Positions 10,772 through 64,000 of a stretch of 64,000 bases of DNA are shown piece by piece; positions within the stretch are counted from its first letter, which is position 1, and every line of letters begins with the position of its first letter. Source of the stretch: Methylocystis sp. L43 (GTDB lineage: Bacteria > Pseudomonadota > Alphaproteobacteria > Rhizobiales > Beijerinckiaceae); contig NZ_JADNRA010000036.1 in assembly GCF_015709525.1 (NCBI RefSeq), positions 248,001-312,000 of the forward strand. The letters are read 5' to 3'. The notes under the pieces were generated by a model, which worked only from the letters and a program-made list of their open reading frames with translations, had not been told where the DNA came from and did no database searches. The position numbers were made by a program, and so were the translations under genes.

Positions 10772-10920
10772 CGCCCCGCTCCTGATGAGCGAAGTAGCGC
10801 GGCGATACGCGAGGTCACGGCTCTGCGACATTTTTTTTGGCGATTTCCCGGCGCCGCAGCGCAGGAAAAGGGGCTCAGCTGCGGGCTTGACTGTATGGCC
10901 GATTGTCCAATTTACCGATC

Positions 10921-12042
10921 ATGCCCGCCAAATCGGAAATCGATCCTTTCTCATTTCGAGACGAATTTGGCCCCGCGAAGATCGTCCACATCTGGTCGCC
11001 TTCGGTCGAACTGCGCGCCGTCGTCGTCATCGACAATGTCGCCGCAGGTCCCGCCATCGGCGGCACACGTATGGCGCCGGACGTCAGCGTCACGGAGTGC
11101 TTCCGACTCGCTCGGGCGATGACTTTGAAGAACGCGGCCTGCGGATTGCCGCATGGCGGCGCAAAATCCGTGATTTTCGGCGATCCCGATATGGCGCCGG
11201 CCGACAAAGAACGGCTCATTCGCGTGTTCGCCAAATCCATTGAGCAGCTCGTCGACTATATTCCCGGACCCGACATGGGCACGGACGAGACGGCGATGGC
11301 CTGGGTGCATGACGAAATCGGCCGCTCGGTCGGTCTCCCGGCGGAGATTGGCGGCATTCCTCTCGATGAAATCGGAGCCACGGGTTTTGGCGTGATGATC
11401 GCTGCCTGCGCAGCCGCGCCCTTCGCCGATGTTTCACTAGGCGGAGCGCGCATCGTCGTGCAGGGGTTTGGCGCCGTGGGCATACACGCTGCGCGGTTTC
11501 TGGCGAGCAAAGGCGCGCGAATGGTCGGCGTATCCGACAGCCGCGGCGCGGTGGCTGACGAGGATGGGCTCGATATCGAGGCGCTCGCCGCGTTGAAGCG
11601 CCAGGGCAAGAGCGTCGGCGATCTGGAGCGCGCGCGCGCCATCGACCCCGAGTCGCTCATCGCCTTGCCTTGCGAGATCTTCATCCCGGCTGCGCGCCCC
11701 GACGTGCTGCGCGCGGACAATGTTGACATGCTCGACTGTAAATTGGTGGTGCAGGGCGCGAATATTCCCGCCACCGTCGAGGCGGAACGCATGATGTTCG
11801 CGCGGGGAATCGTCAGCGTCCCGGATTTCATCGCCAACGCCGGCGGCGTGATCTGCGCGAGCATTGAATATAGCGGCGGCGGCGAAGCGGCGGCCTTCGC
11901 GGCGATAGAGGAAAAAATCGGGCGCAACACGCGGCTCTCGCTGGAGCGGTCGCGCGCCGAGAGCGTCTCTCCTGTCAACGCCGCGATGGAACTTTCGACC
12001 GACCGGCTGCGCAAGATCATGCAACTGAGGCGCTGGGGCTAG
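10921..12042 (+). CDS. Glu/Leu/Phe/Val dehydrogenase, probably leucine dehydrogenase
   Basis: This NAD-dependent oxidative deaminase would convert branched-chain amino acids to 2-oxoacids, feeding the divergent 2-oxoacid dehydrogenase. The 373-aa protein has the N-terminal substrate domain with the catalytic Lys in GLPHGGAKSVI (about Lys82) and a C-terminal Rossmann domain with GFGAVG. Its length fits leucine/phenylalanine dehydrogenases and not hexameric glutamate dehydrogenases (about 450 aa). The ATG at 10921 is preferred to an in-frame TTG 18 nt upstream. Its 3' end overlaps the convergent thiolase by 4 nt. Confidence 0.88.
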   Translation: MPAKSEIDPFSFRDEFGPAKIVHIWSPSVELRAVVVIDNVAAGPAIGGTRMAPDVSVTECFRLARAMTLKNAACGLPHGGAKSVIFGDPDMAPADKERLIRVFAKSIEQLVDYIPGPDMGTDETAMAWVHDEIGRSVGLPAEIGGIPLDEIGATGFGVMIAACAAAPFADVSLGGARIVVQGFGAVGIHAARFLASKGARMVGVSDSRGAVADEDGLDIEALAALKRQGKSVGDLERARAIDPESLIALPCEIFIPAARPDVLRADNVDMLDCKLVVQGANIPATVEAERMMFARGIVSVPDFIANAGGVICASIEYSGGGEAAAFAAIEEKIGRNTRLSLERSRAESVSPVNAAMELSTDRLRKIMQLRRWG

Positions 12043-13229
12043 GCCGGACGCTCGATCGCCATCGCGGTCGCTTCTCCGCCGCCGATGCAGAGCGCCGCCA
12101 CGCCCCTTTTTAGGCCTTTAGCTTCCAGAGCGGCGAGAAGCGTGACGATGATCCGTGCGCCCGACGCGCCGATCGGATGGCCGAGCGCGCAGGCGCCGCC
12201 ACGGACATTGACCTTCTCATGCGGCAAGTCCAGTTCGCGCATCGCCGCCATGGCGACGACGGCGAATGCTTCATTGATCTCGAAGAGGTCGACGTCGTTC
12301 GCCGCCCAGCCCACCCGGTCCAGGAGTTTGCGGATCGCTTCGATCGGCATGACGGAAAAGCGGCTCGGCGCGCCTGCGACCGTGACATAGCCACGAATGA
12401 CGGCGAGCGGCGTCGCGCCGGCGCGCTCGGCCTCGTCGACGCGCATCAGCGCGAGCGCCGCCGCGCCGTCGGATATCGCGCTGGCGTTGGCGGCGGTGAT
12501 CGTGCCGTCCTCCCTGAAGGCCGGTTTCAGCCGGGCGATATCCTGCGCCTTGGCCTTGCCGGGCAGCTCGTCGCTGGCGATGGCGCGCGCGTTGCCGCCT
12601 TTTCCCAGGGTTATTGGCGCGATCTCCTGCGCGAAAGAGTCGTCGCTCGTTGCGCGTTGCGCGCGCGCCAGCGACGTCGACGCATATTGGTCCTGCATCT
12701 CGCGGGTAAATTGATACTCCGTCGCGCAATCCTCCGCGAAGGAGCCCATCAGCCGACCCTTTTCGTAGGCGTCCTCCAGACCGTCCAGAAACATGTGATC
12801 GAGGACCTTGCGGTGTCCCATTCGATAACCGGTGCGCGCGCGATCGAGCAGATAAGGCGCGTTGCTCATGCTCTCCATGCCGCCAGCGACCGCGATCCGC
12901 GCGCCTCCAACGGCGAGCTGGTCGCTCGCGAGCATCACCGCCTTCATTCCAGAGCCGCACATCTTGTTGATGGTGACGGCGCCCGTCGTCTCCGGCAACC
13001 CGGCGCCGAGCGCCGCCTGCCGCGCCGGGGCCTGGCCAAGGCCTGCCGAAAGCACGCAGCCCATGACGACTTCGTCGATGTCGTTCGGCGCCAGGCCGGC
13101 GCGGGTCACCGCCGCCTCGATGGCGTGCGCGCCGAGCTGCGGCGCCGAAACGTCCTTCAATTCTCCCAGAAACGCGCCGATCGGGGTGCGCGCGGCGCCG
13201 ACGATGGCGACCGGTGCGGCAGCGCTCAT
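12039..13229 (-). CDS. Acetyl-CoA C-acetyltransferase (thiolase)
   Basis: This 396-aa thiolase-II type enzyme probably cleaves or forms acetoacetyl-CoA, linking the acetoacetate released by HMG-CoA lyase and fumarylacetoacetase to acetyl-CoA. The nucleophilic Cys91 is in NKMCGSGM, the catalytic His in CALGHPIG, and the second Cys in ALCIGGG. It lies downstream of the valine/leucine genes in the same direction, 25 bp after the HIBCH gene start region. A 2-methylacetoacetyl-CoA thiolase role in isoleucine degradation is also possible. Confidence 0.92.
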   Translation of the reverse strand: MSAAAPVAIVGAARTPIGAFLGELKDVSAPQLGAHAIEAAVTRAGLAPNDIDEVVMGCVLSAGLGQAPARQAALGAGLPETTGAVTINKMCGSGMKAVMLASDQLAVGGARIAVAGGMESMSNAPYLLDRARTGYRMGHRKVLDHMFLDGLEDAYEKGRLMGSFAEDCATEYQFTREMQDQYASTSLARAQRATSDDSFAQEIAPITLGKGGNARAIASDELPGKAKAQDIARLKPAFREDGTITAANASAISDGAAALALMRVDEAERAGATPLAVIRGYVTVAGAPSRFSVMPIEAIRKLLDRVGWAANDVDLFEINEAFAVVAMAAMRELDLPHEKVNVRGGACALGHPIGASGARIIVTLLAALEAKGLKRGVAALCIGGGEATAMAIERPA

Positions 13230-50605: not shown

Positions 50606-52129
50606 ATGAATGTCTCATTTGAAAAAAGTCGATCCTTTTGGACGGACCAGCCTGTTCTCGAAGGCGCAGGCGCTCTTCTCAGCGACGAACGCGCTGATGT
50701 CGTCGTTGTCGGCTCGGGCATCGCGGGGATGTCCGCGGCGTATGAACTTGCGAGCAGCGGCAAGAAGGTCGTCATTCTCGATCGCGGTCCGATCGGCAAA
50801 GGAATGACCGCGCGCACGACCGCGCATCTCGCGTCAGCAAGCGACGACGGCTTTGATGAGCTCATCCGATTGCGCGGCATAGGCAATGCAAGCGCCTGGC
50901 GCGAAAGTCAGCAGGCCGCGATCGATCGCATCGAGACCTTGCAACAAAAGCTAAGGATCGACTGCGACTTCCAAAGGGTCGACGGTTATCTCTTTGCCGC
51001 AAGAAAAGAGGACGCCGAATGGCTCGAGCGCGAGTTCGAAGCGACGCAGAAGGCTGGACTTCCCGTCTTTAAGCAGACGGGCGTTCCCCTTGCCGGCCAT
51101 GACGTCACGCCGGCGCTTCGCTATCCCGATCAGGCCCGCGTGCATCCACTGAAATATCTTCACGGACTTGCGCGCGCGATCGTCGACGCCGGCGGACGCT
51201 TCTATGCCGACGCCACGGTGGTTGAGGTGGCGGAGGACCATGACGGCGTGAGAGTCGTGACGGCCGACGGCCGTACTGTCCGCGCGGATTTCGCGGTGGT
51301 CGCCACGAATGCGCCGATCAGCGACCGCTTCGCCATTCACACCAAGCAAGCGCCTTACCGCACCTACGCGATGGCGTTCGAACTGCGCTCCGGCACGCTG
51401 CCGGACGCATTGTATTGGGACACGCTCGATCCCTATCATTACGTGCGGCTGCAGCCTGGCGATGATGGCGTCGACATTTTGATCGTCGGCGGCGAGGATC
51501 ATCGCTCGGGCGAAGCAAATGATGCGCCTGATCGCTTCGCGGCTCTGGAGCATTGGATGCGCGCGCTTTTGCCTTCGCTCGGCAAAGAGCTTCGCCGCTG
51601 GTCCGGACAGGTTCTCGAACCCATCGACGGCATGGCTTTCATTGGTCGCGACCCTGGGAGCGAGCGCGTTTTCGTGGCGACCGGCGATTCGGGGCAAGGG
51701 ATCACGCATGGCGCGCTCGCCGGCCTGATCATCAAGGACATGATCCTGACCGGCGCCAGCCGCTGGGTCGAGGCCTATGATCCCGCGCGCTCGCCGCTCA
51801 ACGCCGTGGGCGAATATGTGAGCGAGAATCTCACCGCGCCGAAGAACTTCGCCGAATATGTCACGCCCGGAGAAATCAGCTCCTGGGATCAGCTTAAGCC
51901 GGGCGAAGGGGCGATTGTGCGCAGCGGCTTGAGCAAGGTCGCCGCCTTTCGTGACGACGACGGGACGCTGTTCCTGCGTTCAGCCGTTTGTACCCATCTT
52001 GGCTGTCTCGTGCACTGGAACGCCTTCGAGCGATGCTGGGATTGCCCCTGTCACGGATCTCAATTCGCGCCGAACGGCGAAGCGCTCAACGGCCCCGCTT
52101 ACGGACCTTTGCAAAAACATGAGCCTTGA
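50606..52129 (+). CDS. FAD-dependent oxidoreductase with C-terminal Rieske domain
   Basis: This 507-aa protein fuses a DAO-type FAD domain ([17 protein letters not shown], ending with [16 protein letters not shown]) to a C-terminal [2Fe-2S] Rieske domain with CTHLGC and CPCHGSQF. The layout matches the FAD/Rieske proteins found near stress genes in Rhizobiales and Bacillus YhfW-like proteins; the substrate is unknown. The ATG at 50606 (MNVSFEKS) is preferred to 50567. It precedes a membrane protein by 6 nt and has an exact EcfG promoter upstream. Confidence 0.88.
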
Positions 52130-52135
52130 GAGCGG

Positions 52136-52726
52136 ATGCTGATGGAACAGGATCCGACATTACTGGTGCTGATGTATTTTGTCGTGCCGGTCTGGCTGAT
52201 GGCGGGGTTCGCCGACTGGCTGTGTCATCGCGCCACAAACATCGAAACAACCTCCTGCGCAAAGGAATCCGTTCTTCACCTCCTGCTCTTCGCTGAAGTC
52301 GCGGGGCCGTTCCTCGCGGCGCTTCTGCTGGACATCAACGCGCTCGTGCTCGCCTTCATGATCGTGATGTTCTTCGTTCACGAGGCGACGACGCTTTGGG
52401 ATTTGAGCTATGCGGTGAATTTGCGCGAGATAACCCCGATCGAGCAACACGTTCACAGCTACCTTGAAATGATGCCGCTGATGGGCCTGCTGTTGGTCGC
52501 GGCGCGCCACTGGCCGCAATTTCTGGCGCTTTTTGGATTTGGCGATGAAGCGGCGCGCTTTGACATCGCGCTGAAAGTCCCTCCACTGCCGCCCGCCTAT
52601 ATTTTCAGCGCTGTCGCCGCAGCGTTGCTGTTCGCCGTCCTGCCCTACACCGAAGAACTCTGGCGTGGCTTGCGGGCCAATAACGGCCGCTTCGTTCCGG
52701 GCGCTGCAAGACTGTCCTCGCGGTAG
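52136..52726 (+). CDS. Polytopic membrane protein with conserved histidines
   Basis: This 196-aa protein has about five membrane helices and conserved His/Asp motifs near membrane boundaries (GFADWLCHRATNIE, FFVHEATTLWD, PIEQHVHSYLEMMP). The His spacing recalls metal-dependent membrane enzymes, but no family is certain; rhizobial relatives have been labelled diguanylate cyclase without a GGDEF domain. A second ATG at 52142 is possible. It is tightly linked to the FAD/Rieske gene, so the two may form a redox pair. Confidence 0.7.
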   Translation: MLMEQDPTLLVLMYFVVPVWLMAGFADWLCHRATNIETTSCAKESVLHLLLFAEVAGPFLAALLLDINALVLAFMIVMFFVHEATTLWDLSYAVNLREITPIEQHVHSYLEMMPLMGLLLVAARHWPQFLALFGFGDEAARFDIALKVPPLPPAYIFSAVAAALLFAVLPYTEELWRGLRANNGRFVPGAARLSSR

Positions 52727-52906
52727 ACCCAACCTTGGACGAAACTGGAATTTTTCGACTTACGTCCTGCCCCACCTCATTGATGAAACGCGGCCTTCGA
52801 TGCTCGGCCTCGACAATGGCGTCGTGAGCGCCCAGATATAAGGCGACGATCCAGCTTCTCGTGAGGGCGTCGCAATTAAGATGTTTCAAAGGCGAGCGAG
52901 GCACAC

Positions 52907-53248
52907 ATGCGTAAGACATCGAAATCTATCATCACCGCCGCCCTGTTTGGCGGGTTGGCCGCGACGGCTTTGACAGGTAACGCTTGGGCGGGACCTAATG
53001 TGGCGCGGTCGGCGGGCATTGATGCGCCATCATTAACTGATCAGATCTACTACCGGCGTTACTACCGAGGCGGCGGCTATTACCGCCGTGGCTATAATCC
53101 GGGCGCCGCCGCGGCCGCAGCGGCCGTTGGCGTGCTCGGCGCCGCCGCCGCAGCCGGCGCAGCCGGCGCTTACGCACAGCCGTATTATTATGGCTATCCG
53201 GCCTATGGCTACCCAGCTTACGGCTATCCCGACGGCTTCGGATGGTAA
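52907..53248 (+). CDS. Secreted Gly/Ala/Tyr-rich protein
   Basis: This 113-aa protein has a signal peptide (residues 1-28, ending AWA), a Tyr/Arg/Gly segment (YYRRYYRGGGYYRRGY), an Ala-rich hydrophobic core (about 66-88) that could insert in a membrane, and a C-terminal repeat of GYPAY units. CGAGG precedes the ATG. Low-complexity secreted proteins of this kind occur in Rhizobiales; the function is unknown. Confidence 0.65.
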   Translation: MRKTSKSIITAALFGGLAATALTGNAWAGPNVARSAGIDAPSLTDQIYYRRYYRGGGYYRRGYNPGAAAAAAAVGVLGAAAAAGAAGAYAQPYYYGYPAYGYPAYGYPDGFGW

Positions 53249-53498
53249 GAGCGGGGTTCGCCCTTTCGGCGGCGGCGGTTCCATGTAGACCGCTGCCGTC
53301 GACCTCAGGCTCAATCCAAGGGGCGGCCCAAAGGACGGCCGAAGGGGCGGCGCTGTAACGCGCGCGCTCCTGACGACCGCATCGCTCCGGCCTTCGTGAG
53401 CGGTTGAGCGCCAATCGGCCTGGCGCGGCAACAAATTGGCGGCAATGAGCGCGCCGACGCGGCGCTAAAAAGCAACGCGACGGCCCGATGGATGGCGC

Positions 53499-53885
53499 TT
53501 ACTTCGTCGCCGCCGACTTCAGTTTGGCGAGGGGCCGGATTTTGACGCGCACGCTTGCGGGCTTGGCGGCGGCTTTGACCATCTCGCCCGTCGCAGGATT
53601 GCGAACCAAAGTTCCCGCCTTGCGCGCCGGCACCTTGCGAAGGGTCGCTTTCAGAAGGCCCGGCAGGGTGAACTCGCCGACGCCGCGCGGGTGGACTGAC
53701 CCGAGAAACACATTCTCCAGCGTCGCGTAGACGCCCACCGCGGTCTTGCGAGGAATGTCATTCTCCTCGGCAATCCGGTTGATGAGAGCCGATTTTGTAA
53801 ATGTCTCTTTGATCGGCCGAATCGCGGCAGGTTCAGCCTTGTTGACCTTCCTGCTCGCCGCCTTCACCGGTTTTCCTCTAGCCAT
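53499..53885 (-). CDS. HU-family DNA-binding protein with basic extensions
   Basis: This 128-aa protein has a Lys/Ala/Arg-rich N-terminal extension (residues 1-27), an HU/IHF core (KSALINRIAEENDIPRK, then GVGEFTLPGLLKATLRK and RNPATGEMV) and a basic C-terminal tail. HU proteins bend and compact DNA as dimers. The core is divergent from canonical HU, and the basic tails resemble those of nucleoid proteins in other Alphaproteobacteria. AGGA lies 8 nt before the ATG. Confidence 0.85.
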   Translation of the reverse strand: MARGKPVKAASRKVNKAEPAAIRPIKETFTKSALINRIAEENDIPRKTAVGVYATLENVFLGSVHPRGVGEFTLPGLLKATLRKVPARKAGTLVRNPATGEMVKAAAKPASVRVKIRPLAKLKSAATK

Positions 53886-54324
53886 AAGATGTCCTTTACG
53901 AGTTAAGCGCCTGCATTATTGCTCGCCCGCACAAATGCGATTGCTAACGATTTCATTGGTGATTCGCAAATTTCTGTGCAGCGATTGCAAGCGGCGGAAG
54001 ATCCCGCGCCAACGCAATACTGATAATGCTGCGCGTGAGGAGCTAGTGGCGGCGTTCTAGGGGCCATCGAGTGAACAGCACTCATCGGCGCTCCGAGGAG
54101 CGCATGCGGCGCCTTCGCCCCGACGCCTGACGCCCTTTTAGGTCAGCGCAGATGTTGCGCAGAGTTCAATGACCGCCGAGCCAACCTACTGGAAATCAGC
54201 TTCTGTCCGAATTGCTCGAAATGATTTGCCAATGCGTCTCGCGCCGAGGCCCGATTTCCGGCGCGTTCTTCAGGACGTTCGCCAACTTCGGCTCGCGGCC
54301 TGAAGACGACGCTATCTTGGGACG
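53886..54324. other. Intergenic region, no gene seen
   Basis: About 440 bases. A 13-bp direct repeat (GACGCTATCTTGG, twice in tandem, about 54306-54331) ends just inside the next gene. No convincing open frame was found; the part next to the HU gene should hold its promoter. Confidence 0.45.
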
Positions 54325-54720
54325 CTATCTTGGCAAGCGTCCCTTTCGGGTTTTCAGCGCATCGGGGCCAAGCCCCAGACCTCGGCCTGCCTGCGTCTCG
54401 CCGGTCGATCCCCCCAAGTCGAAACCGGGCCGGTCAACTTGCTCGGAATCATCCGCCGGCTCTGCCCTGTCAGTCTCGGGTGACGACTCCTTCGGCTTCT
54501 CGGCGGCTGACGTGGCGTCAGGTTGAATTCTATCGTCGCTCGATGGGCGGCGATTGGCCGGGTTGTCCTTGTATTCATCGACCTGAACGCCTTTACTGTC
54601 CAAGCTCTGTCCAGGTCGTCTTTGGGCCTTGTCGCGATTACTGAGGATGTCGTTCTTCCTCACCTTTTCATCGTTCAGTTCCGTCCTCGCCCCGGTTCCA
54701 CTGCTTTGTCCTGACGACAT
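54325..54720 (-). CDS. Disordered hydrophilic protein, probable stress gene
   Basis: This 131-aa protein is almost entirely polar (Ser, Asp, Arg, Pro, Gly, Glu) with no hydrophobic core, so it should be intrinsically disordered. Segments such as NDEKVRKNDILSNRDKAQRRPGQ and DEYKDNPANRRPSSDD have no family that I recognise. AGGAG lies about 10 nt before the ATG at 54720. An EcfG-like promoter lies 52 nt upstream, which together with the composition suggests a desiccation or osmotic-stress role. Confidence 0.62.
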   Translation of the reverse strand: MSSGQSSGTGARTELNDEKVRKNDILSNRDKAQRRPGQSLDSKGVQVDEYKDNPANRRPSSDDRIQPDATSAAEKPKESSPETDRAEPADDSEQVDRPGFDLGGSTGETQAGRGLGLGPDALKTRKGRLPR

Positions 54721-54771
54721 CTTGCCTGCTCCTGTTCGCTCCACGAGGACCGCGGCGCCCCTAACAGAACC

Positions 54772-54796
54772 AACCCCTGGGCTAAGCGAGGGTTCC
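54772..54796 (-). promoter_or_regulatory. EcfG-like promoter (GGAAC-N16-GGTT)
   Basis: On the minus strand GGAAC (54796-54792) and GGTT (54775-54772) are 16 nt apart, 52 nt before the disordered protein. Confidence 0.55.
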
Positions 54797-55105
54797 CTTC
54801 CCGGCGCTATCCACGCCGCTGTCGCACGCTTCCGCCAGCACTTTGAGTCCTGAGAAACCCCGACGTCGCCGCCGGTTCGGGGAGGAGCGCGAGGGCAAGT
54901 CGCGACAAGTGAAATTTGGCTGTGCACGCAGTCCAGAGCGAACTCCGGCGCTTCCGCTTCGCGCGATCGATCCCGCGACGGGGCCATTTCGCCGATCGTT
55001 GGCGCAGCGCTTTGCATAAAGCCGCGCGGAATGCTGACGTCGCGGCAAGCAGCCAAAGACGCAGCTCTGAAGAACGCCTTGAGGCGTTCTTAACAGCAAA
55101 GATGT
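54797..55105. other. Intergenic region, no gene seen
   Basis: About 310 bases between the stress promoter and the transposase remnant. A frame continues from the disordered-protein gene on the minus strand, but it is Arg/Pro-rich and not supported. Confidence 0.4.
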
Positions 55106-55320
55106 AAACGACTCGACAAATGGCTTGACGACGCTCAGCGATCAGGAATTTACGCGATGCGACGCTTCGCTTGTAAGTTACGCAACGACATTCATGCGGT
55201 CCGCAATGCGGTGGCGGAACCTTGGAGCAATGGTCAAACCGAGGGACAGATCAATCGATTAAAAAACGCTCAAGCGGGGCATGTATGGCCGCAAGCGCCG
55301 AACTGCTACGAGCGCGTATG
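55106..55320 (+). pseudogene. C-terminal remnant of an ISL3-family transposase
   Basis: One plus-strand frame reads KRLDKWLDDAQRSGIYAMRRF and later AVAEPWSNGQTEGQINRLK, the well-known ISL3-type transposase C-terminus. A frameshift then breaks the following segment (SAELLRARMIPL appears in another frame). The catalytic part is missing. No terminal inverted repeats were recognised. Confidence 0.8.
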
Positions 55321-55545
55321 ATCCCGTTATCGGCATTCACGGCGCACGAAAAGTGAGGCAGACCCAATTAAATGGATATTCCCAAGCATCATGGCTCAGG
55401 CTAAATAATTGATTTTATTGAAAACGAATTCTCACGCCAAGATGGCTCCCGACACAGGCACCCCGGCGACGACGCCCAACCAATTGCCAACTGTTCCCGC
55501 GACGGGACCAACCGGGCGGCTGCGACTCCGACTGATCAACTGTCA

Positions 55546-55773
55546 TCAGGCGCGTTCCGACTTCTGGTCAATCCATTGATAGACTACCAGCGATTTAGCA
55601 CAAGGAAGGGTGCAGCTATGGCACTGTCTTTCGAATCGCGAAGCCTTGCCCTTGCGCACCCAATGTTCAAGCATTGCGTGCGCTGTTTGCGGAGAAATAT
55701 CGAAGTGGGCGGCGACATCGCGGACGCACACCCAGCTATGTGACGCTAAATAATCTTTGAGCTCCGAGAGCAT
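55546..55773 (-). CDS. feoC: FeoC-like regulator
   Basis: This 75-aa winged-helix protein (ELKDYLASHSWVCVRDVAAHF, PQTAHAMLEHWVRKG) ends with a Cys cluster (CHSCTLPC) that could bind an Fe-S cluster, as in FeoC. FeoC is thought to regulate FeoB stability or transcription. Its ATG shares one base with the feoB stop (TGATG), so it is translated by coupling. Confidence 0.87.
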   Translation of the reverse strand: MLSELKDYLASHSWVCVRDVAAHFDISPQTAHAMLEHWVRKGKASRFERQCHSCTLPCAKSLVVYQWIDQKSERA

Positions 55774-58700
55774 CAGGCTTTAGCCCCCAGGTCGCTCGCA
55801 GCGACAGTCGTCGGCCTTGCGCCAACGTACAAACTTACCGCGCCTAGTACGACAAAGTAAGTCACGACGCCCAAGATCCATGCGGCCGATGAGTAAGGAT
55901 GCAAGGCGAAAGTTCCAATCTGATAGAACAGCACTGCCGCGCCGTAGCCGATGCTGATTGTCCAAAGCACCATGAAGGCTGTCCATCGCTGGTTGGTCTC
56001 GCGCACGGTCGCAGCGGTTGTCGCTATGCAAGGGTAGCAGAGAATCAAGATGAGATAGGCGAGCGCGCCGACTTGGCCATCGAACTTGGTCGCCAGGGCC
56101 GGAGCGAGACCGGCGGCCGCTTTATGCAAACGCACCGGCTTGCCCATTCCCACCATCGCTTTGAGATTTTGTGGAACAGTCAAAGCCGCCCGATTCAGCC
56201 TTCCCAGCAGATCGAAGCCTTGCTCCTCCTTGGGCGGGGCGTGCTGCAGGCCTGGCTTTGGGCGGCCGCCCAGCTGATCGTCGCGCTGCGGCGCTTGGCC
56301 GGCATGCTCGGAGACCATTGGCGGCGCCTGCTCGGTTGCAGGCGGCGGCTTCTGCTCCATCGTCGTCGGCTTTTGCACTTCAGGCTGCACCGCGCCGGGC
56401 GCCCGGTCCGCCGCAGCCGGCGGAACACGTTGGGAAGCTGTGCGCGCCTGTTCAGCGGCGACGGCGGCGCGGACATGCGCCTGCGCCTCACTGACGTTCG
56501 GCAAGCTCATGGGATCGAGCCGGGCCATGCGCTTGCGGATAACCTTTGCGCTGACGCCCTCGATGCTGCGGCTAATCGGATGCGCTCCGCCTTTAGGGTC
56601 GATCAAAACGAGGTCGCGGCGTTCACCTCGGGCGAGATTCCATCCGGCCTCGGTGATGGCCGCGGCAAACGCCTGCGCCGTGGCCGTGCTTCGCCATAAT
56701 GCAGTAATCTTCGCTTTCGCGTCCTCCTGAGTCACACCGCCGCTGGCGCTCGTCTCGATCTCTCGCGCCGGCTTCTGGCCTGCTTGTTCCGTGACGTCCG
56801 GCGCAGCGGCCTCCGCAGGACTGGCGTCGGCCCGGTCGCTGCGTTGAACATGACCGCCTAGCGTTTGGCCTGAGCGATCGGCGCTCACCGTCTTTCCGTC
56901 CTCGGAGCCGGCGCCGCCGCCGCTCTGCTGGATCTCATGGCTGGGACTGGAGACTGCGCTGGAAGGCGGTCCTTCGATCGGTTTCGTTTCCGACGGACTC
57001 AGACTTGCCGCGGGCCCATTGTGCTGAGCTTCAGTAGGGACCGGCGGCTCCTTCGGCGGCTCCGCCGCTGCCGGCGCCATTTGCTGGGCCTGCTCCATAT
57101 AGATCGAGCTGAGCGTGGTCACGATCACCACCTTGTGCAAAGCCCCGGTGATGAGCGCCACGGTGGCCGGCCAATTGTCTTGCTGGACGCCCATTGGAGT
57201 CAGGACGGGCGTAATCGCGCGTCCTCCCGCAGCCAGCATTGATTGGTCGACGGGCTTCTGATTGAAGGAACCGTCAGTCCCCCATGCGCCAAGAATCTTC
57301 ACGAGAAACACGAGTGGGATGATGAATTTGCCGACCCGAAAGATGAACATCTTCAGGCGTATCCACGCATTGATCAGCACGTTTCTTAACTTGGGCCAGT
57401 GATAGGACGGCAACGTCTCCACGTGCAGCGAGCGCTCTTCCGGCAGCAAACTGAACTTCATGAGGAGGGATGTGAGCATCGCGAAGACGATGCCAAGAAG
57501 ATAAAAGCCGAAGATCACGAACTGGCCGTGCTCTGGAAAAAAGGCGGCAGCGAAGACCGTATACACCGCCAAGCGCCCGCCGCAGCTCATGAACGGGCTC
57601 ATCAGCACCGCCACGATCCGATCCCGCGGACGCTCCATCGTGCGCGTTGCCATGATGGCGGGCACATTACACCCGAAGCCCACCACCATCGGTATGAAGG
57701 CGTTTCCTGGAAGGCCCAACGACTTCATGACCCGGTCCATGACGAAATTGGCGCGCGCCATGTAGCCTGACTCTTCGAGAGCTGAAACGAAAAGATAGAG
57801 AAAGCCAATGATGGGAATGAAGGTCACCACCTGCAGCAGCCCGTTGCCGAGACCGTCAGCGATTAGGGCGTTGAGCCACGCGGGCGTATTGATCGTCCCG
57901 AGCAGATATCGAGGCCCGTCGATGAACAGCGTCTCGGAAAGCAACCAGAAGAATGGCCTGAAGGCGCGACTGAGCTCAATAGTGAACCAGAACAGGCAGT
58001 ACATGACGCCGACGAAAATGGGAATGCCGAGAAAGCGGTTCAGCACCACGCGATCAATCCGGTCCGACGCGCTGGAGCCAGTTACGGCGCGTTTGGGCAG
58101 CGCCTCCTCGGCAATCATATGAGCAAACCGATAGCGGCTATTGGCGATGACCGTGTCGGCCTCATCGCCCATCTCATGCAGAATTCCGCTGGCCAGCCGC
58201 ACATACGCCTGATTCACCGCCGGCGTGACCAGACGCGTTGCGAAACCGTCGCCCTCCAACAGGCGCAAAGCTAACCAACGATCGTCCAGGCGGCTTGTCG
58301 TCGACGTTTTGCGGATCATTAAGGACAGCTCCGAGATCGCTTGTTCAATCAATGGTGGATAATCGATGGAGAGGCTTGAGAACTTTCGCTCGGGGACCCA
58401 TTGCTGAACGTCAGCTTTGAGGCTTTCTATTTGTTTGCGCCTTGAAGCGACGATCGCTGCGACCGGGCAACCCAATCGGCGTTGGACAGCGTCGACATCA
58501 AGCTGCGCCTCGCGGCCATCGACGTCGTCCATAATGTTGAGCACGACCGCCACCGGAGCCGACATTTCCAGCAATTGCGTCGTCAGATAGAGACTGTGCT
58601 CGAGATGGGAGGCGTCGATGATATTGATGATCAGGTCGGCTTCCCCGGAGAGAACGTAATCTCGTGCGATCCGCTCATCGACCGACGTGGCTTCATCATA

Positions 58701-59150
58701 CGTGTCCAGGGAATGGATCCCCGGCATATCCACGACACGGAAGCGCTGATCTGCAAATTCAAACTCGCCCTCCTTCTTCTCTACCGTGACGCCTCCCCAG
58801 TTTCCAACGCGCTGATGGGTCCCCGTCAAGCCGTTGAACAGCGTGGTCTTGCCACAGTTGGGGTTGCCGACGATGGCGATCGTAATCGAATCTTTTCGAT
58901 CAATCTTCGCTTCGCCGGCGATGAGCTCAATCGACAAGGCCGACGCTTCGTCCCTACGCAGAGTGATGGATGTATCGCGCACCCGCACCTCGACCGGATC
59001 GCCGAGCGGAGCGACCCGCATGACGGTGAATTCGACGCCCGGCGTGAGGCCCATGGACAGTAATTTCTGTCGATGGGCTGTGTCGCCGCGCTCAAAGCCT
59101 GTCACGCGGCCCCGTTCTCCAACTTTCAGATCACCGAATTTGATTGTCAT
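55773..59150 (-). CDS. feoB: FeoA-FeoB fusion ferrous-iron transporter with large inserted domain
   Basis: This 1125-aa protein would import Fe(II). Residues 1-78 are a FeoA SH3-like domain (KLLSMGLTPGVEF). The FeoB G domain follows, with G1 GNPNCGKT (95-102), G3 DMPG (141-144) and G4 NIMD (205-208). The membrane part has gate motifs GFGCNVPAIMATR (491-503) and LCYPCIATTAA (1037-1047). Ordinary FeoB is about 600-800 aa. Here residues about 690-975 are inserted: Pro/Ala/Gln-rich linkers flank a folded segment at about 806-890 (ALWRSTATAQAFAAAITEAG ... LPNVSEAQ) that resembles an accessory domain of relaxase/mobilisation proteins. It is coupled to feoC downstream. Confidence 0.9.
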   Translation of the reverse strand: MTIKFGDLKVGERGRVTGFERGDTAHRQKLLSMGLTPGVEFTVMRVAPLGDPVEVRVRDTSITLRRDEASALSIELIAGEAKIDRKDSITIAIVGNPNCGKTTLFNGLTGTHQRVGNWGGVTVEKKEGEFEFADQRFRVVDMPGIHSLDTYDEATSVDERIARDYVLSGEADLIINIIDASHLEHSLYLTTQLLEMSAPVAVVLNIMDDVDGREAQLDVDAVQRRLGCPVAAIVASRRKQIESLKADVQQWVPERKFSSLSIDYPPLIEQAISELSLMIRKTSTTSRLDDRWLALRLLEGDGFATRLVTPAVNQAYVRLASGILHEMGDEADTVIANSRYRFAHMIAEEALPKRAVTGSSASDRIDRVVLNRFLGIPIFVGVMYCLFWFTIELSRAFRPFFWLLSETLFIDGPRYLLGTINTPAWLNALIADGLGNGLLQVVTFIPIIGFLYLFVSALEESGYMARANFVMDRVMKSLGLPGNAFIPMVVGFGCNVPAIMATRTMERPRDRIVAVLMSPFMSCGGRLAVYTVFAAAFFPEHGQFVIFGFYLLGIVFAMLTSLLMKFSLLPEERSLHVETLPSYHWPKLRNVLINAWIRLKMFIFRVGKFIIPLVFLVKILGAWGTDGSFNQKPVDQSMLAAGGRAITPVLTPMGVQQDNWPATVALITGALHKVVIVTTLSSIYMEQAQQMAPAAAEPPKEPPVPTEAQHNGPAASLSPSETKPIEGPPSSAVSSPSHEIQQSGGGAGSEDGKTVSADRSGQTLGGHVQRSDRADASPAEAAAPDVTEQAGQKPAREIETSASGGVTQEDAKAKITALWRSTATAQAFAAAITEAGWNLARGERRDLVLIDPKGGAHPISRSIEGVSAKVIRKRMARLDPMSLPNVSEAQAHVRAAVAAEQARTASQRVPPAAADRAPGAVQPEVQKPTTMEQKPPPATEQAPPMVSEHAGQAPQRDDQLGGRPKPGLQHAPPKEEQGFDLLGRLNRAALTVPQNLKAMVGMGKPVRLHKAAAGLAPALATKFDGQVGALAYLILILCYPCIATTAATVRETNQRWTAFMVLWTISIGYGAAVLFYQIGTFALHPYSSAAWILGVVTYFVVLGAVSLYVGARPTTVAASDLGAKA

Positions 59151-59374
59151 CGTAGCGACTCTCGCTAATTCGAACCGGCCGCCGAGGCCGATGGAGTTGG
59201 GCGACGGGAGCGAGAAATGCTCGCTTCCGCCGATCGAAGCCCGTTCGTCAGAAGCCGATGTCGGGAGCCATCTTGGCTTGAGAATATGGAACTTCGCGTT
59301 AAGAAAGCCATCAAACGGGTTTGTGCGTCGGCATCGGCGCGGGTCGTGCGGTCGATCGGGGAACAGCGCAGCTT

Positions 59375-59482
59375 CTAATTGGGCGCGCGAAGAAAATCGT
59401 CGTGCCTGTCGACCTCGATGGTCACCGTCGCCGTCATGCCCGGCTCAAGCAGCAAATCGGGATTGGGCGCATCGATGGCGAC
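59375..59482 (-). pseudogene. Fragment of a MacA/RND-type periplasmic adaptor gene
   Basis: The minus strand reads IDAPNPDLLLEPGMTATVTI and EVDRHDDFLRAPN, the late beta-barrel segment of HlyD/MacA-type efflux adaptors, and then meets a stop. No start and no other domains are present. Confidence 0.65.
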
Positions 59483-59504
59483 ATCGTTGGCCGCGCCATT
59501 TCCG

Positions 59505-59658
59505 CGGCGACGATCGCATCTATGTGGCGCGCGCTATTGCAGCGCGCGCTGGCCTCTCGCAGGCCGACGCCGAAAGGCGAGTCGGCGCGCTTTCCGAACA
59601 GCTGAAGACTTCCGCCGACAACGTGCGGGCAGCGACCGAAACCGCGCGCAAAGGCGGA
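59505..59658 (+). pseudogene. Fragment of a membrane-protein gene joined to smbP
   Basis: The plus-strand frame DDRIYVARAIAARAGLSQADAERRV followed by ETARKGG matches the pre-membrane C-terminal region of a common alphaproteobacterial membrane protein. The expected final membrane helix is replaced in the same frame by the smbP signal peptide. Confidence 0.55.
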
Positions 59659-59910
59659 ATGATCGCCTTGTTGACCCTCGGGCTGGTTTGCTCCTTTGCG
59701 CCGCGCCTCGCGCTCGCGCATGAGAGTCATTTGGCCCAGGCGATCTCCCATACTCGCGAAGCCGTCTCGGCCGGCCGGGAGGGTAAGCCAAGCTCGCTGG
59801 TCCTGCACGCCACTGAAGCCCTCCATCATGCCTCGGCGGCACAAGCCGAACGGCCGAATGCGCAGGTGAAGGAGGCGATCGCTCGCCTGAAGGAAGCGAT
59901 TATTTGGTAA
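59659..59910 (+). CDS. smbP: SmbP-like small metal-binding protein
   Basis: This 83-aa protein has a signal peptide (residues 1-20, ending LALA) and a His-rich helical mature part (HESHLAQAISHTREAV, LHATEALHHASAAQ). That is the pattern of SmbP, a periplasmic copper-binding helical-bundle protein described in Nitrosomonas. AAGGCGG precedes the ATG at 59659. The same frame stays open upstream into a fragment of another gene, so a longer fusion product cannot be excluded. It lies beside the feo locus on the opposite strand and is followed by a terminator. Confidence 0.8.
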   Translation: MIALLTLGLVCSFAPRLALAHESHLAQAISHTREAVSAGREGKPSSLVLHATEALHHASAAQAERPNAQVKEAIARLKEAIIW

Positions 59911-59999
59911 GAAGAAAACGCCGCGCTGCGACAACGATCGCTTACCGCGCGCTGCAACGACTGGAACGCGCGCCACAATAAGCGTTTGTGTTTGGTTAC

Positions 60000-60030
60000 G
60001 CGACGGCCTTTTCCAGGCCGCCGCTTTTTT
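60000..60030 (+). terminator. Rho-independent terminator after smbP
   Basis: A 9-bp GC-rich stem with one mismatch (GCGACGGCC / GGCCGCCGC) and a 7-nt loop is followed directly by six T residues. Confidence 0.75.
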
Positions 60031-60342
60031 ATTTCCGGAGTCACTTGCGAAAAGCGCAATGGTCGGCAGCGCACAACGATCACGACTAACATCGAGCTCT
60101 AGTCGGGGTTGTCAACTCACCGCGCGTCAGACCCTTTGCCAATTTTGCTGCAAGGAAAGTTATTCTGTTCCTCGGCATAAGCGGCGGTCAATGCGACTCG
60201 AACTTTGAGGCGCGAAACCGCTTCGAGGAAACGGGCCACTTCCGCGGCACTTGACCCGCTTGCCAGTTTGCGCGGTTCACGGGCGTAGTCCATCTGTTAG
60301 AGGATGCCCTCGCAGCCTAGCGTCACGTGCCATCGGGCGCTG
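60031..60342. other. Intergenic region, no gene seen
   Basis: About 310 bases between the smbP terminator and an IS remnant. No convincing gene or repeat was recognised on either strand. Confidence 0.45.
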
Positions 60343-60580
60343 CTAAAGTCGCGACGGCGTCCGCACGGCGAACGCCGGGATGAAGACCTCTGGCGCTGGC
60401 GCGGCTTGCAGCTCAATGATTCATTGCGGGCGCTCGGTATTGTAACGCCGCCGCCAACCTTTGATTGCGACCCTTGCCTCGTTACAAGAACAAAGAAACC
60501 TCGCCGTCGAGAAGTTCGCCTCGCGGTAAACGTTAGAGCTTTCGCGATACCGTTCTCTCAAGAACGCCGGGCGTGATATA
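60343..60580 (-). pseudogene. Remnant of an IS3-type transposase (OrfB C-terminus)
   Basis: The minus strand reads REANFSTARFLCSCNEARVA then IKGWRRRYNTERPQ and, after an in-frame stop, APAPEVFIPAFA. This corresponds to the integrase C-terminus (EAWRxDYNxxRPH) and the usual tail of IS3-like transposases. It is short, interrupted, and without recognisable ends. Confidence 0.7.
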
Positions 60581-60704
60581 GGAGGTCTTGGCGCCGACGC
60601 GCCGACCACCGGTTGTGACAAGAGTTTGTCGTATGACAAACTGAAAGCGAGACGAAATTCGCGGGGCGGACCACCGATTCGTCGGGGCGATTTTTGGAGG
60701 CCAC

Positions 60705-62498
60705 ATGAGCGAGCAAATCATTCAGGGCGGCGTTTCCCGTGACCGGGCCGCGCTTACAGAAGGACGGACCGGAGAGAGTTCGGATTCCCGTGGCGCAAAG
60801 GCCGCTAAGAAAAAACGCAATCGCAACACGCCGCTGTACCGATGGTCGTTCACCATCCACAAATGGGCCGGGCTCATCGCCGCCGTGTGGCTCGGCGTGC
60901 TGGGATTGACAGGCTTTTTCATGAACAATGGCGAATGGCGCTGGCTTCAACAGGTCACGGCGCCAACCTGGCTCGCCAGCGAGAATGTGGCGCAGAACGC
61001 CGCGCGCAATGTTTTCCGCTATCTGCAGATCGATCCGGCCAATACGTCCGTTCGCGTCGCTGGCGGCCCGCGTGGATTGTGGCGCAGCGCCGATGGCGGC
61101 GCCAGCTGGTCGCCGACTCGTTTCGAGGGCTACGCGCATCCGCAGATTTTCGCCGTCGAAGCGGACCCCGTGCGCGGCTGGGAAAGGCTGTGGATCGGGA
61201 CCGACGACGGTCTGTTCGTGACGACCGACAAGGGCGAGACGGCGCGGCCGGTGGCGCTTTCGGGCGAGTCTGTCACGGCGCTGGCGCAAGGCGCGTCTTC
61301 TTCCGAAATGCTCGGCGTCGTCGACAAGTCGCGCGTGTTTCGTTTCGATCCCAATACGCCGTCAAAGATCGAAATGCTCGATCTTGGGCCGCTGCCCAAA
61401 GAAGCGCGCCCAGAGTCGGTTCGCTTGCACCGATTAATCCGCTCGATTCATTTCGGGCGGGGACTGTTCGAGCCGGCGATTTCGCGGCTGATCAACGATT
61501 TCGGCGGGCTCGCGATGTTCTTCCTCGCGATAACCGGGCTACTGTATTGGGGATTCGGCAAGTGGTGGCGCATGCAGGCCAAGGCGGGCGTGCGCGGCAT
61601 GTCGCCGGAAGCCAAGCGCACGACGACGAGCTGGCTCTATCGGATTCACGGCGCGACCATCGGCTTGCTGTGCGCGCCCATCCTGCTTTATCTGGCGCTC
61701 ACCGGCATTGTCATCGACCATGACAGGGAACTCGGCGACCTGCTGCGCAGCACAATGACGCCGAAGGCGCTCTACACGCCGGCCTTCAGGCCGAGCCTTT
61801 GGGACGAGCGCATCGACGCGATCGTCGGCTATCCCGGCGCGCCGGGAGTCTTCTCGGTCGGCAATTTCCTCGGTCTGTTCACCACGGCCGACGGCGGCAA
61901 GACCTGGGCGCGCGAGGACGACGCCGAGGGCAAGCCGATTGGCGGCGCCAATCGCATGCGTCGCATTGGCGACCGCATCGTCATGATGTCGGGCATGGGC
62001 TCGAATGCGACGATCCGCGGCGACGACTTCGTCTTTCGTCAAGCGGCGCTTGCCCCGCCGGAAGGCATGGGCATAGGACCCGGCCGCGGCATGGGCAGGA
62101 CGAAGGAAATGAGCGAGCGCCGCGGCGATGCCGCCGCATCTGGAAATCAGCCTCCGCACGGGGCCGGCGAGTCAGCGGGCCGTCCCGCGCGGCCCATGAT
62201 GATGGGCGCGATGAGCCGCGGCTTTGCGCCCACCGACGTCACCGCCTTTAACGGCGATCTTTTATGGCGCACGGGCGCGAAGTTCGTCGTGACGAGCCTC
62301 GACGGCGCACGCATCAAAATGCTCGAACCGACGCAGCCCGAGGCGCCCGGCGTCCCGATGTTCATGTGGCTGCGCAGCCTTCACACCGGCGCGCTGTTCT
62401 GGAGCGAATGGCGCTGGGTGAACGATATTTTCGCGACGCTCGCACTCTTCCTGATCGCGACCGGCCTCATTCGCTGGTGGCGCCAGAAGTGGATGTGA
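60705..62498 (+). CDS. PepSY-type membrane protein with beta-propeller-like insert
   Basis: This 597-aa protein has the PepSY-TM layout: a first helix after IHKWAGLIAAVWLGVLG, a central pair (GGLAMFFLAITGLLYWG, IHGATIGLLCAPILLYLALTG) and a final helix (IFATLALFLIATGLI). The extracytoplasmic loops carry BNR/Asp-box-like units (GLWRSADGGASW, GLFVTTDKGE, GLFTTADGGKTW). A Met-rich segment (GMGIGPGRGMG, MMMGAMSRGF) could bind copper. GGAGG precedes the ATG by 5 nt. A role in periplasmic metal reduction is inferred from PepSY relatives. Confidence 0.83.
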   Translation: MSEQIIQGGVSRDRAALTEGRTGESSDSRGAKAAKKKRNRNTPLYRWSFTIHKWAGLIAAVWLGVLGLTGFFMNNGEWRWLQQVTAPTWLASENVAQNAARNVFRYLQIDPANTSVRVAGGPRGLWRSADGGASWSPTRFEGYAHPQIFAVEADPVRGWERLWIGTDDGLFVTTDKGETARPVALSGESVTALAQGASSSEMLGVVDKSRVFRFDPNTPSKIEMLDLGPLPKEARPESVRLHRLIRSIHFGRGLFEPAISRLINDFGGLAMFFLAITGLLYWGFGKWWRMQAKAGVRGMSPEAKRTTTSWLYRIHGATIGLLCAPILLYLALTGIVIDHDRELGDLLRSTMTPKALYTPAFRPSLWDERIDAIVGYPGAPGVFSVGNFLGLFTTADGGKTWAREDDAEGKPIGGANRMRRIGDRIVMMSGMGSNATIRGDDFVFRQAALAPPEGMGIGPGRGMGRTKEMSERRGDAAASGNQPPHGAGESAGRPARPMMMGAMSRGFAPTDVTAFNGDLLWRTGAKFVVTSLDGARIKMLEPTQPEAPGVPMFMWLRSLHTGALFWSEWRWVNDIFATLALFLIATGLIRWWRQKWM

Positions 62499-63795
62499 CG
62501 TTCGTGCGCAGGCGCGCGCTCACGTAGTGGGCGCCAAGACCGACGCAGATCAGGATGGTCGCGGCGATCGCGGATCCCGGACGCATGATGATGGCGGCGA
62601 CGGCGATGCCGGTCGTCGCCGCCAAAAACACGGTCGCTGCGCCGAGCAGGAAAACACGTACGCGTTGCGTGGAGCCAAGGAATTCTTGCCGCAGCCAGCC
62701 CACGATCACCGCGCCTGCTGAAACGCTGAGCGTCACGCCGACAAACTCCAGGAGCTCACGTAGGCTGGCGCTCCAGACGACGATGATGCAGAGCGCCGCT
62801 TGCGCGATGATGGCGATGCGTGGGTGCTCGCCGTGCAGGCGGCCGAGAATCGCCGGCAGCGCGCCGTCTCGCGCCATTTGGGCATAGACGCGCGGACCAC
62901 TGAGCAACATGGAGGAGGCGGAGGTCGCCAGCGCAAGCGCGATGAGGGCGCTGAGACCTTCCTCGGCGCGAACCCCGCCAAGCGCACGCGCGGCGACCGC
63001 GCCCGAGTCGGCGACGCCAGCCAACGCTTCTCGCGGCGCGCTATAGAGAATGACGGCGCTGACGCCGAGATAAAGCACGATGACGAGCGCCGTTCCGGAA
63101 TAGAGCGCGCGACGCACCGCCTCGCCGCCGCCCTCGACGTCGCCGGTGACGTAAACGGCGGCGTTCCAGCCGGAATAGGCGTAGGAGATCCATACGAGCG
63201 AGCCGCCGAAGGCGAGTAGCGAAAACGGCGATCCGTCGACGGCCGGAGAGACGCCGATCGCGTTGGCGACATGCGGCGCGCCGAGAAAGATAAAGGCGAG
63301 AATGGCGACGACTTTTATCGCGACCGCGCCGTTCAGAAAACGCACGCCCGTCTCCGGCGCGCCGGCGTGCAGCGCGGCGAGCATGACGATCAGCGCGCTC
63401 GCGAACCAGGGCGCGCCAGTTTCGAAACCGCCCACGCGCGCGGCATAGAGTTCCGCGCCAAGCGCCGCAGCGGCGATCGGAGAGGTGAAGCCGGCGACAA
63501 GCGAAACCCAGCCGGCGGCCGTGCCAAGCGCGGGATGCAGCGTTTCTCTGAGAAAAGCGTACTCGCCGCCCGACTGCGGAAATCGCGTGGCGAGATCCGC
63601 GTAGATCGCCACGCCCGAGAGCGCGTAGATTCCGCCAACCAGCCAGGCGAGCAGCACGAAGCCTGGCGACCCCAGGTCGGAGAGTGCGAAGCCGGAGGTG
63701 GTGAACACTCCCGTGCCGATCGTGTTGGCGACGACGAGCGCGATCGCGCCGCGATAGTCGAGAAGCCGCCTGCGCGGCCCCGCCCGATGCGTCAT
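62467..63795 (-). CDS. APC-family amino-acid permease
   Basis: This 442-aa protein has about twelve membrane helices and the APC hallmark ANTIGTGVFTTSGFAL in helix 1, with a conserved SGGEYAFLRETLHP loop. It should exchange or import amino acids, which would suit the catabolic genes at the other end of the window. The start at 63795 overlaps the upstream methyltransferase stop by 4 nt; the frame is open further but runs inside that gene. Its 3' end overlaps the convergent PepSY gene by 32 nt. Confidence 0.88.
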   Translation of the reverse strand: MTHRAGPRRRLLDYRGAIALVVANTIGTGVFTTSGFALSDLGSPGFVLLAWLVGGIYALSGVAIYADLATRFPQSGGEYAFLRETLHPALGTAAGWVSLVAGFTSPIAAAALGAELYAARVGGFETGAPWFASALIVMLAALHAGAPETGVRFLNGAVAIKVVAILAFIFLGAPHVANAIGVSPAVDGSPFSLLAFGGSLVWISYAYSGWNAAVYVTGDVEGGGEAVRRALYSGTALVIVLYLGVSAVILYSAPREALAGVADSGAVAARALGGVRAEEGLSALIALALATSASSMLLSGPRVYAQMARDGALPAILGRLHGEHPRIAIIAQAALCIIVVWSASLRELLEFVGVTLSVSAGAVIVGWLRQEFLGSTQRVRVFLLGAATVFLAATTGIAVAAIIMRPGSAIAATILICVGLGAHYVSARLRTNVTSTSGATSE

Positions 63796-64000
63796 TGCGC
63801 GCTCTTCTTGAAGATCGCAAAAAACTGGCGCGGGAGGAAGTCGGGGGCCTCGGCGAGCGTAAAGCCGGCCTTTTGCATGTCCTCGACGCACTTTTCGAAA
63901 GTGGGGCGGCGGTCCTTTGGAGGGCCCATCGACACGTCGGGCCGAGCGAGGATTAACGCGACGCGGCCATCCGGCTTCAGCTGACTTCTGAGCTTCGTGT
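63792..64000 (-). CDS. Class I SAM methyltransferase-like protein (C-terminal part)
   Basis: Only the last 68 or so residues are in the window. They read LRSQLKPDGRVALILARPD and end with FTLAEAPDFLPRQFFAIFKK, the beta6-beta7 end of a Rossmann-fold methyltransferase. The remainder is beyond the window edge, so the substrate cannot be judged. The stop overlaps the permease start (ATGA). Confidence 0.7.
   Translation of the reverse strand, partial: TKLRSQLKPDGRVALILARPDVSMGPPKDRRPTFEKCVEDMQKAGFTLAEAPDFLPRQFFAIFKKSAQ

Follow-up and report, generated by a model that had tools for sequence, protein, structure and literature searches.

A relaxase-related domain inserted in the gate-2 loop of a FeoA-FeoB ferrous-iron transporter from Methylocystis sp. 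L43

Fusions of FeoA to FeoB are already known among ferrous-iron transporters, one from Bacteroides fragilis being described in PMC8980893. For the Pseudomonas aeruginosa FeoB, PMC4847171 gives a model with cytoplasmic termini in which the gate-2 cysteine lies at the periplasmic top of transmembrane (TM) helix TMH7, and PMC11920956 states that the periplasm contains none of the Feo proteins. Here, a FeoA-FeoB fusion (FeoAB) from Methylocystis sp. L43 was analysed, encoded in a stretch of 64,000 nucleotides (the window; contig NZ_JADNRA010000036.1, positions 248,001 to 312,000). It carries a large insert in its gate-2 loop, and the insert contains a domain homologous to part of conjugative relaxases and recurs in three other assemblies. 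The host is a methane-oxidising bacterium, a type II methanotroph. Like the described fusions, the window protein has FeoA, GTPase, cytosolic helical and Gate regions, and feoC overlaps the end of its gene; unlike them, its gate-2 loop is longer by about 290 residues and contains a relaxase-derived domain. Among the matches listed from open-licence PMC papers, no title or abstract beginning links FeoB to a relaxase, LysM or OmpA domain. We regard the insert-bearing FeoAB as a new form of a transporter, FeoB, that is itself known.

The insert and its homology to relaxases

As the preliminary description had proposed, the 1125-amino-acid (aa) protein joins FeoA to FeoB. It is encoded by one open reading frame (ORF) on the minus strand (55773..59150 of the window, ATG start at 59150, stop at 55773), which is also the strand of the protein regions and of feoC located below. 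A Pfam scan placed five domains above their own cut-offs: FeoA at residues 7-75 (58926..59132; PF04023, E 1.1e-20), the GTPase domain FeoB_N at 90-247 (58410..58883; PF02421, E 9.8e-59), FeoB_Cyto at 264-350, the Gate-1 (nucleoside recognition) region at 442-536, the best of two Gate stretches (57543..57827; PF07670, E 4.4e-34), and FeoB_C at 546-598. The FeoB models TIGR00437 and NF007105 were also exceeded at their cut-offs, and both the G1 motif GNPNCGKTT and the gate-2 Pro-Cys are present. By these sequence criteria FeoAB is a ferrous-iron transporter, for which Fe(II) transport and GTP hydrolysis are predicted.

The insert follows directly on the gate-2 hairpin (residues 662-684, 57099..57167), which was delimited by a hydropathy segment at 662-680 and by comparison with sister FeoBs and in which the sequence GALHKVVIVTTLSSIYMEQ spans residues 669-687. 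From the end of the hairpin motif (684) to the YPC of LILILCYPC (1033-1041) there are about 354 residues. The same interval, measured between motif anchors, is 29-92 aa in 33 of 41 FeoB ORFs, in keeping with the earlier statement that known FeoB loops are much shorter; it is 280 and 299 in two others, both insert carriers. The remaining six gave no usable interval (the window's truncated locus, the frame-broken piece of genome G032, one early-ending ORF, two with a missed anchor and one false value of 422 from a misplaced anchor). A large insert after residue 690 had been reported correctly, but its extent of about 285 residues was revised to residues 688-978 approximately, that is, 291 aa, or about 263 net against the loops of 90-92 aa in the sister proteins. 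These sisters, from genomes G023 (L048/L154; contig of 260 kb) and G020 (L049/L155; 299 kb), are FeoABs without the insert and have normal gate-2 loops of 92 and 90 aa. The normal loop is also kept in the window protein (residues 979-1026, FDLLGRLNRAALTVPQNLK..., 56073..56216), where the insert separates it from the hairpin; in both sisters the same stretch directly follows the hairpin. The insert had been described as a module inside the iron gate. It does lie in the gate-2 loop region, between the hairpin and TM7, but beside gate 2 and not inside the pore.

Within the insert, a central domain (residues 807-905, 56436..56732) is flanked by two linkers whose composition agrees with the Pro/Ala/Gln-rich character first ascribed to them. 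The N-side linker (688-806, 56733..57089; about 119 residues) has 13% Pro, 17% Ala and 10% hydrophobic residues, and the C-side linker (906-978, 56217..56435; about 73 residues) has 21% Pro and 14% Gln. Compared by eye with the relaxases, the linkers resemble them only in an Ala-rich helix after the domain. AlphaFold2 modelling of residues 799-905 from eight sequences gave a mean predicted local distance difference test score (pLDDT) of 83 and a predicted template modelling score of 0.71, with two helices, three short strands, one short and two longer helices in that order. A folded middle segment, as suggested before, is thus plausible from the model.

A relaxase-type segment at residues 806-890 or so had previously been recognised, and the comparison of profiles bears this out: the FeoB-insert profile aligned with the relaxase-domain profile at 99.72% in hhalign (E 1.6e-26, 89 columns, 42% identity). 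On this sequence evidence, residues 807-905 are homologous to the segment that MobA/VirD2-like (PF03432) relaxases carry behind their nuclease domain. The segment was not well described as a C-terminal region of these proteins, because it directly follows the nuclease domain and often lies mid-protein. The nuclease domain PF03432 itself is absent from the 1125-aa protein (Pfam scan with E up to 10), and FeoAB is therefore no relaxase. For residues 807-901 no model reached its cut-off, the best being ACCA in Pfam (E 0.12) and PRK05724 in NCBIfam (E 0.019), the best E-value for the domain against PHROGs was only 0.077, and the scan of the whole protein gave no LysM or OmpA-like Pfam match in the insert. 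In five of five relaxases scanned (L015, L043, L044, L056 and L058), only PF03432 exceeded the Pfam cut-off and the post-nuclease domain was without a match. This unnamed domain of many relaxases merits a family model of its own.

The relaxase relationship was found in several searches. At E 0.001, a plasmid search matched six records, comprising one feoB, three annotated relaxases and two hypothetical proteins of Xanthomonas hortorum, of which the one that was scanned contains PF03432. The best relaxase match, with 48% identity over query residues 6-80, was from plasmid pTF4.1 of Acidithiobacillus ferrooxidans; the post-nuclease domain of pTF4.1-type relaxases is homologous to the insert domain. 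A profile of the four FeoB inserts matched 36 domain copies in 36 loci (best 83 bits), these loci having originally been gathered with the same domain as query. The gathered loci hold 52 domain-bearing ORFs. The relaxase motif is present in 42 (38 distinct places, two viral contigs being present three times each), and six are FeoBs (four distinct proteins, two of them twice). Of the four ORFs without the motif, L058 and L044 have PF03432 by Pfam, L151 has the nuclease part in another frame and L019 is a short piece of a frame-broken gene. Across the order, the domain was matched at E 1e-6 in 50 of 397 genomes, the context being examined for the best-matching loci only. It was matched in 29 of 61 genomes, and within FeoB in only three of these (the window's genome G000, G004 and G032). 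A sequence-pattern search yielded the domain in only two of 31 loci, both on contigs already known from another search. A search of viral contigs with alignment A1 found no relative of the insert. The FeoB locus L116 has no insert, and L117, which ends just after the gate-2 hairpin, is uninformative.

The C-terminus of AccA (acetyl-CoA carboxylase alpha) was tried as a source of the domain. The FeoB-insert profile matched AccA at 86% (E 5.2e-6) in hhalign, but the relaxase-domain profile did so at only 0.1% (E 0.53), and the likeness was read as chance because the link to relaxases is far stronger. Many weak genome matches are AccA C-termini, as seen in L010 and in 20 loci forming the AccA set.

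Recurrence, conservation and origin

The insert recurs in G004 (taken as Methylocystis silviterrae FS), in the alphaproteobacterial metagenome-assembled genome G032, counted in the window's genus, and in plasmid pMSC49c of Methylosinus sp. C49, where the insert-bearing feoB (L042) occupies 9763-12912. In G032 the frame is broken at the start of the insert, as an error of assembly, frameshifting or annotation might produce. Against such an artefact, the reading frame is uninterrupted in the window, in G004 and in C49, whose plasmid is complete and circular, and the recurrence of the insert in other assemblies leaves this explanation with a very small probability. Both refuting conditions named in the preliminary description, a segment unrelated to relaxases and an assembly artefact, came out in its favour: the relation exists, and three further assemblies have the insert.

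Domain and linkers have been conserved differently. Residues 807-890 have no gapped codon in comparison with either G004 or C49, with identities of 87% and 67% and ratios of nonsynonymous to synonymous substitution rates (dN/dS) of 0.32 and 0.24, respectively. The linkers (688-806 and 891-978) are 76-79% identical to G004 and 37-38% to C49 and contain 17-60 gapped codons, the N-side linker having 31 against G004 and 60 against C49; their dN/dS values are 0.43 and 1.87 against G004, and 0.39 and 0.36 against C49. For the TM core, the corresponding values are 0.07 (G004) and 0.09 (C49). By these point estimates, the domain is better conserved than the linkers and less so than the TM core.

When a tree was built from 40 domain sequences, the FeoB copies, four in number, fell into a single clade (100/99) separate from the 36 relaxase domains. 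With midpoint rooting this clade lies inside a 16-row relaxase group, one of two main groups, and adjoins pTF4.1 with weak support (88/61). Such a position is compatible with the domain having passed once from a relaxase gene into feoB and supports a single acquisition in that direction. A FeoB tree of 37 rows was built after removal of columns with gaps in more than half of the rows; of the 41 ORFs six were omitted, and the set was completed with the window protein and G032's N-terminal piece. It contains a methanotroph clade of six (100/100), composed of the four insert carriers (100/99) and of G023 with G020 (100/99). Most hydrophobic and Gly positions of the relaxase domain are kept in the FeoBs. 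Unlike in the relaxases, where Ser and Asp of a Ser-Asp pair occur in 31 and 34 of the 36 domains, the pair is Thr/Ala-Ala in all four FeoBs, and two of the four have lost an Arg that 33 of 36 relaxase domains possess. These alterations of relaxase residues suggest a changed function.

Membrane side of the insert and the sister proteins

Hydropathy indicates three segments after the gate-2 loop, TM7-TM9 (residues 1027-1107, 55830..56072), and a fourth one in the sisters G023 and G020. The C-terminal tails of these sisters consist of this extra TM segment, a Pro-rich linker and then a LysM (E 1.7e-5) or an OmpA (E 1.9e-7) domain, both above the Pfam cut-offs. LysM and OmpA-like domains are peptidoglycan binders. 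Since four hydrophobic segments lie between the gate-2 loop and the LysM or OmpA domain, both would be on the same side of the membrane. The loops after TM7 and TM8 contain two and zero Lys/Arg residues, and the loop that leads into the sisters' extra segment contains five and four. Together, the charges of the short loops and the segment count point to a periplasmic gate-2 loop, and we regard the two Gate regions as inverted hairpins. The insert is predicted to be on the periplasmic side, a placement supported by hydropathy, charge pattern, the published P. aeruginosa model and the sister proteins.

Were the insert cytoplasmic instead, its domain could act near the G-domain, FeoC or DNA. The retained loop 979-1026 contains several Lys/Arg residues, which would suit this orientation, and the periplasmic orientation is itself based on prediction; on the other hand, the scarcity of Lys/Arg after TM7 and TM8, the LysM and OmpA domains four segments away in the sisters and the periplasmic gate-2 cysteine of the model in PMC4847171 make a cytoplasmic domain improbable.

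The sisters belong to the same clade as the carriers and have in common with them a linker-tethered domain on the predicted periplasmic side. They differ in that their gate-2 loop is normal, that an additional TM helix at the C-terminus bears the LysM or OmpA domain, and that FeoC was not matched. By profile, feoC was found in eight of the 61 genomes. It accompanies the insert in G000, G004, G032 and also C49, and in the same 61-genome search no profile match was obtained in G020 and G023. In this very small sample, FeoABs appear to have either the insert together with feoC or the tail and no feoC, as if these were alternative forms.

Possible roles of the inserted domain

This leads to the question what a relaxase-derived domain may do in an iron transporter. 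We propose that it serves as an arm in the periplasm by which FeoB is tethered or coupled to a partner in the envelope, a reading to which we assign a probability of roughly 0.42 and in which the binding is suggested by analogy with the LysM and OmpA sisters only. In one ancestral event, the post-nuclease domain of a MobA/VirD2-like relaxase would have entered the loop between the gate-2 hairpin and TM7. Because this loop is predicted to be periplasmic, the domain would hang outside the inner membrane on its two linkers of about 119 and 73 residues. There it might bind a fixed envelope component, either peptidoglycan or an outer-membrane partner, and the binding could position the transporter or couple the mouth of gate 2 to the partner. 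The proposal is based on the LysM/OmpA parallel, on the long Pro-rich linkers and on an outer-membrane beta-barrel gene upstream of feoB in C49, part of which is matched upstream of feoB in G032. In C49, the gene so annotated (L042, 7507-9723) lies directly upstream of feoB; its product matches OMP_b-brl at residues 83-254 and is rich in His and Gly in the middle, and its C-terminal part (405-738) has no Pfam match. The gene upstream of feoB in G032 matches residues 405-738 of this protein.

Several observations weigh against an envelope arm. No binding site, partner or peptidoglycan-binding signature was identified for the insert domain, and neither Foldseek and VIA-align against the Protein Data Bank nor Foldseek against BFVD gave a confident relative, peptidoglycan-binding folds included. 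The Pfam match of the C49 outer-membrane protein is confined to residues 83-254, outside the part kept in G032, and relatives of the protein were found neither in the window nor in the searched stretches of G004, G023 and G020. Only four carriers of the insert were found. Against C49, the linker dN/dS values (0.39 and 0.36) are, as point estimates, not far above that of the domain (0.24). Regarding orientation, the P. aeruginosa model was built on a distant template, and the AlphaFold2 model of full-length FeoAB was poor (pLDDT 44) and unfit for judging orientation. The low pLDDT of the linkers is no evidence of disorder, because most of the full-length model is low too.

As first suggested, and as one of several readings, a regulatory or sensor domain could act on the gate-2 mouth and alter Fe(II) entry in response to a ligand, a metal or a partner, with no anchoring to the wall. 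The insert is right beside gate 2, the cysteine of which is the proposed Fe(II) sensor in P. aeruginosa (PMC4847171), and the occurrence of feoC with the insert but not with the LysM and OmpA tails would suit a system under different regulation. Yet linkers of 119 and 73 residues that change in length suggest a loose coupling to the gate, and inspection by eye, with no dedicated search made, revealed no metal-ligand cluster in the domain; we consider a sensor unlikely, but far from negligible. We give still less credit to a binding of nucleic acid or another anionic polymer retained from the relaxase ancestor and serving in the periplasm or on the surface. All four FeoBs retain the LARG-D/E-R stretch, and their domains have net charges of +4, +7, +8 and, in C49, +1, so that three of four exceed the relaxase mean of +2.3 (86 residues). 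The conserved relaxase Arg is nevertheless lost in two of them and the Asp is Ala in all four, and to our knowledge no role of the post-nuclease domain in relaxases has been described.

The domain might also be a passenger without a role, tolerated in a permissive loop. Loop length varies among FeoBs, carriers are few, and the dN/dS of the domain exceeds that of the TM core by a factor of three to five. However, the domain has stayed ungapped across two genera while the linkers gained and lost residues, and we hold a mere passenger to be rather improbable.

If the domain is an envelope arm, the FeoAB lineage of type II methanotrophs might have gained periplasmic anchoring in more than one way, through LysM or OmpA carried by an extra helix and through a relaxase-derived domain in the gate-2 loop; FeoB would then be part of an envelope-spanning iron-entry complex, and a DNA-transfer domain would have been reused as an envelope-binding or gate-coupling module. 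This wider scenario is doubtful at present. The borrowed domain may represent a new way of anchoring or coupling an iron pump to the cell envelope, and it would plainly exemplify the move of a conjugation-protein domain into a membrane transporter. A FeoB subfamily with apparent built-in periplasmic domains also offers a direct handle on the Fe(II) route across the periplasm and on any fixed envelope partners of FeoB.

In the surroundings of the gene, feoC (55546..55773, 75 aa; PF09012, E 1.3e-14) begins with an ATG that overlaps the feoB stop; its frame runs to 177 aa in M. silviterrae, versus a stop at 75 aa in the window. The feoB neighbourhood of pMSC49c contains two TonB-dependent receptors, FecR, a sigma factor, feoC and the methanobactin genes mbnF and mbnM. 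Rfam gave no match above the gathering scores in window positions 52000-64000. Upstream of feoB, positions 59658-60029 have DNA similarity to smbP (small metal-binding protein) of a Methylocystis rosea plasmid, and downstream of feoC, positions 54948-55375 have DNA similarity to ISL3-family transposase genes of Methylocystis sp. MJC1 plasmids.

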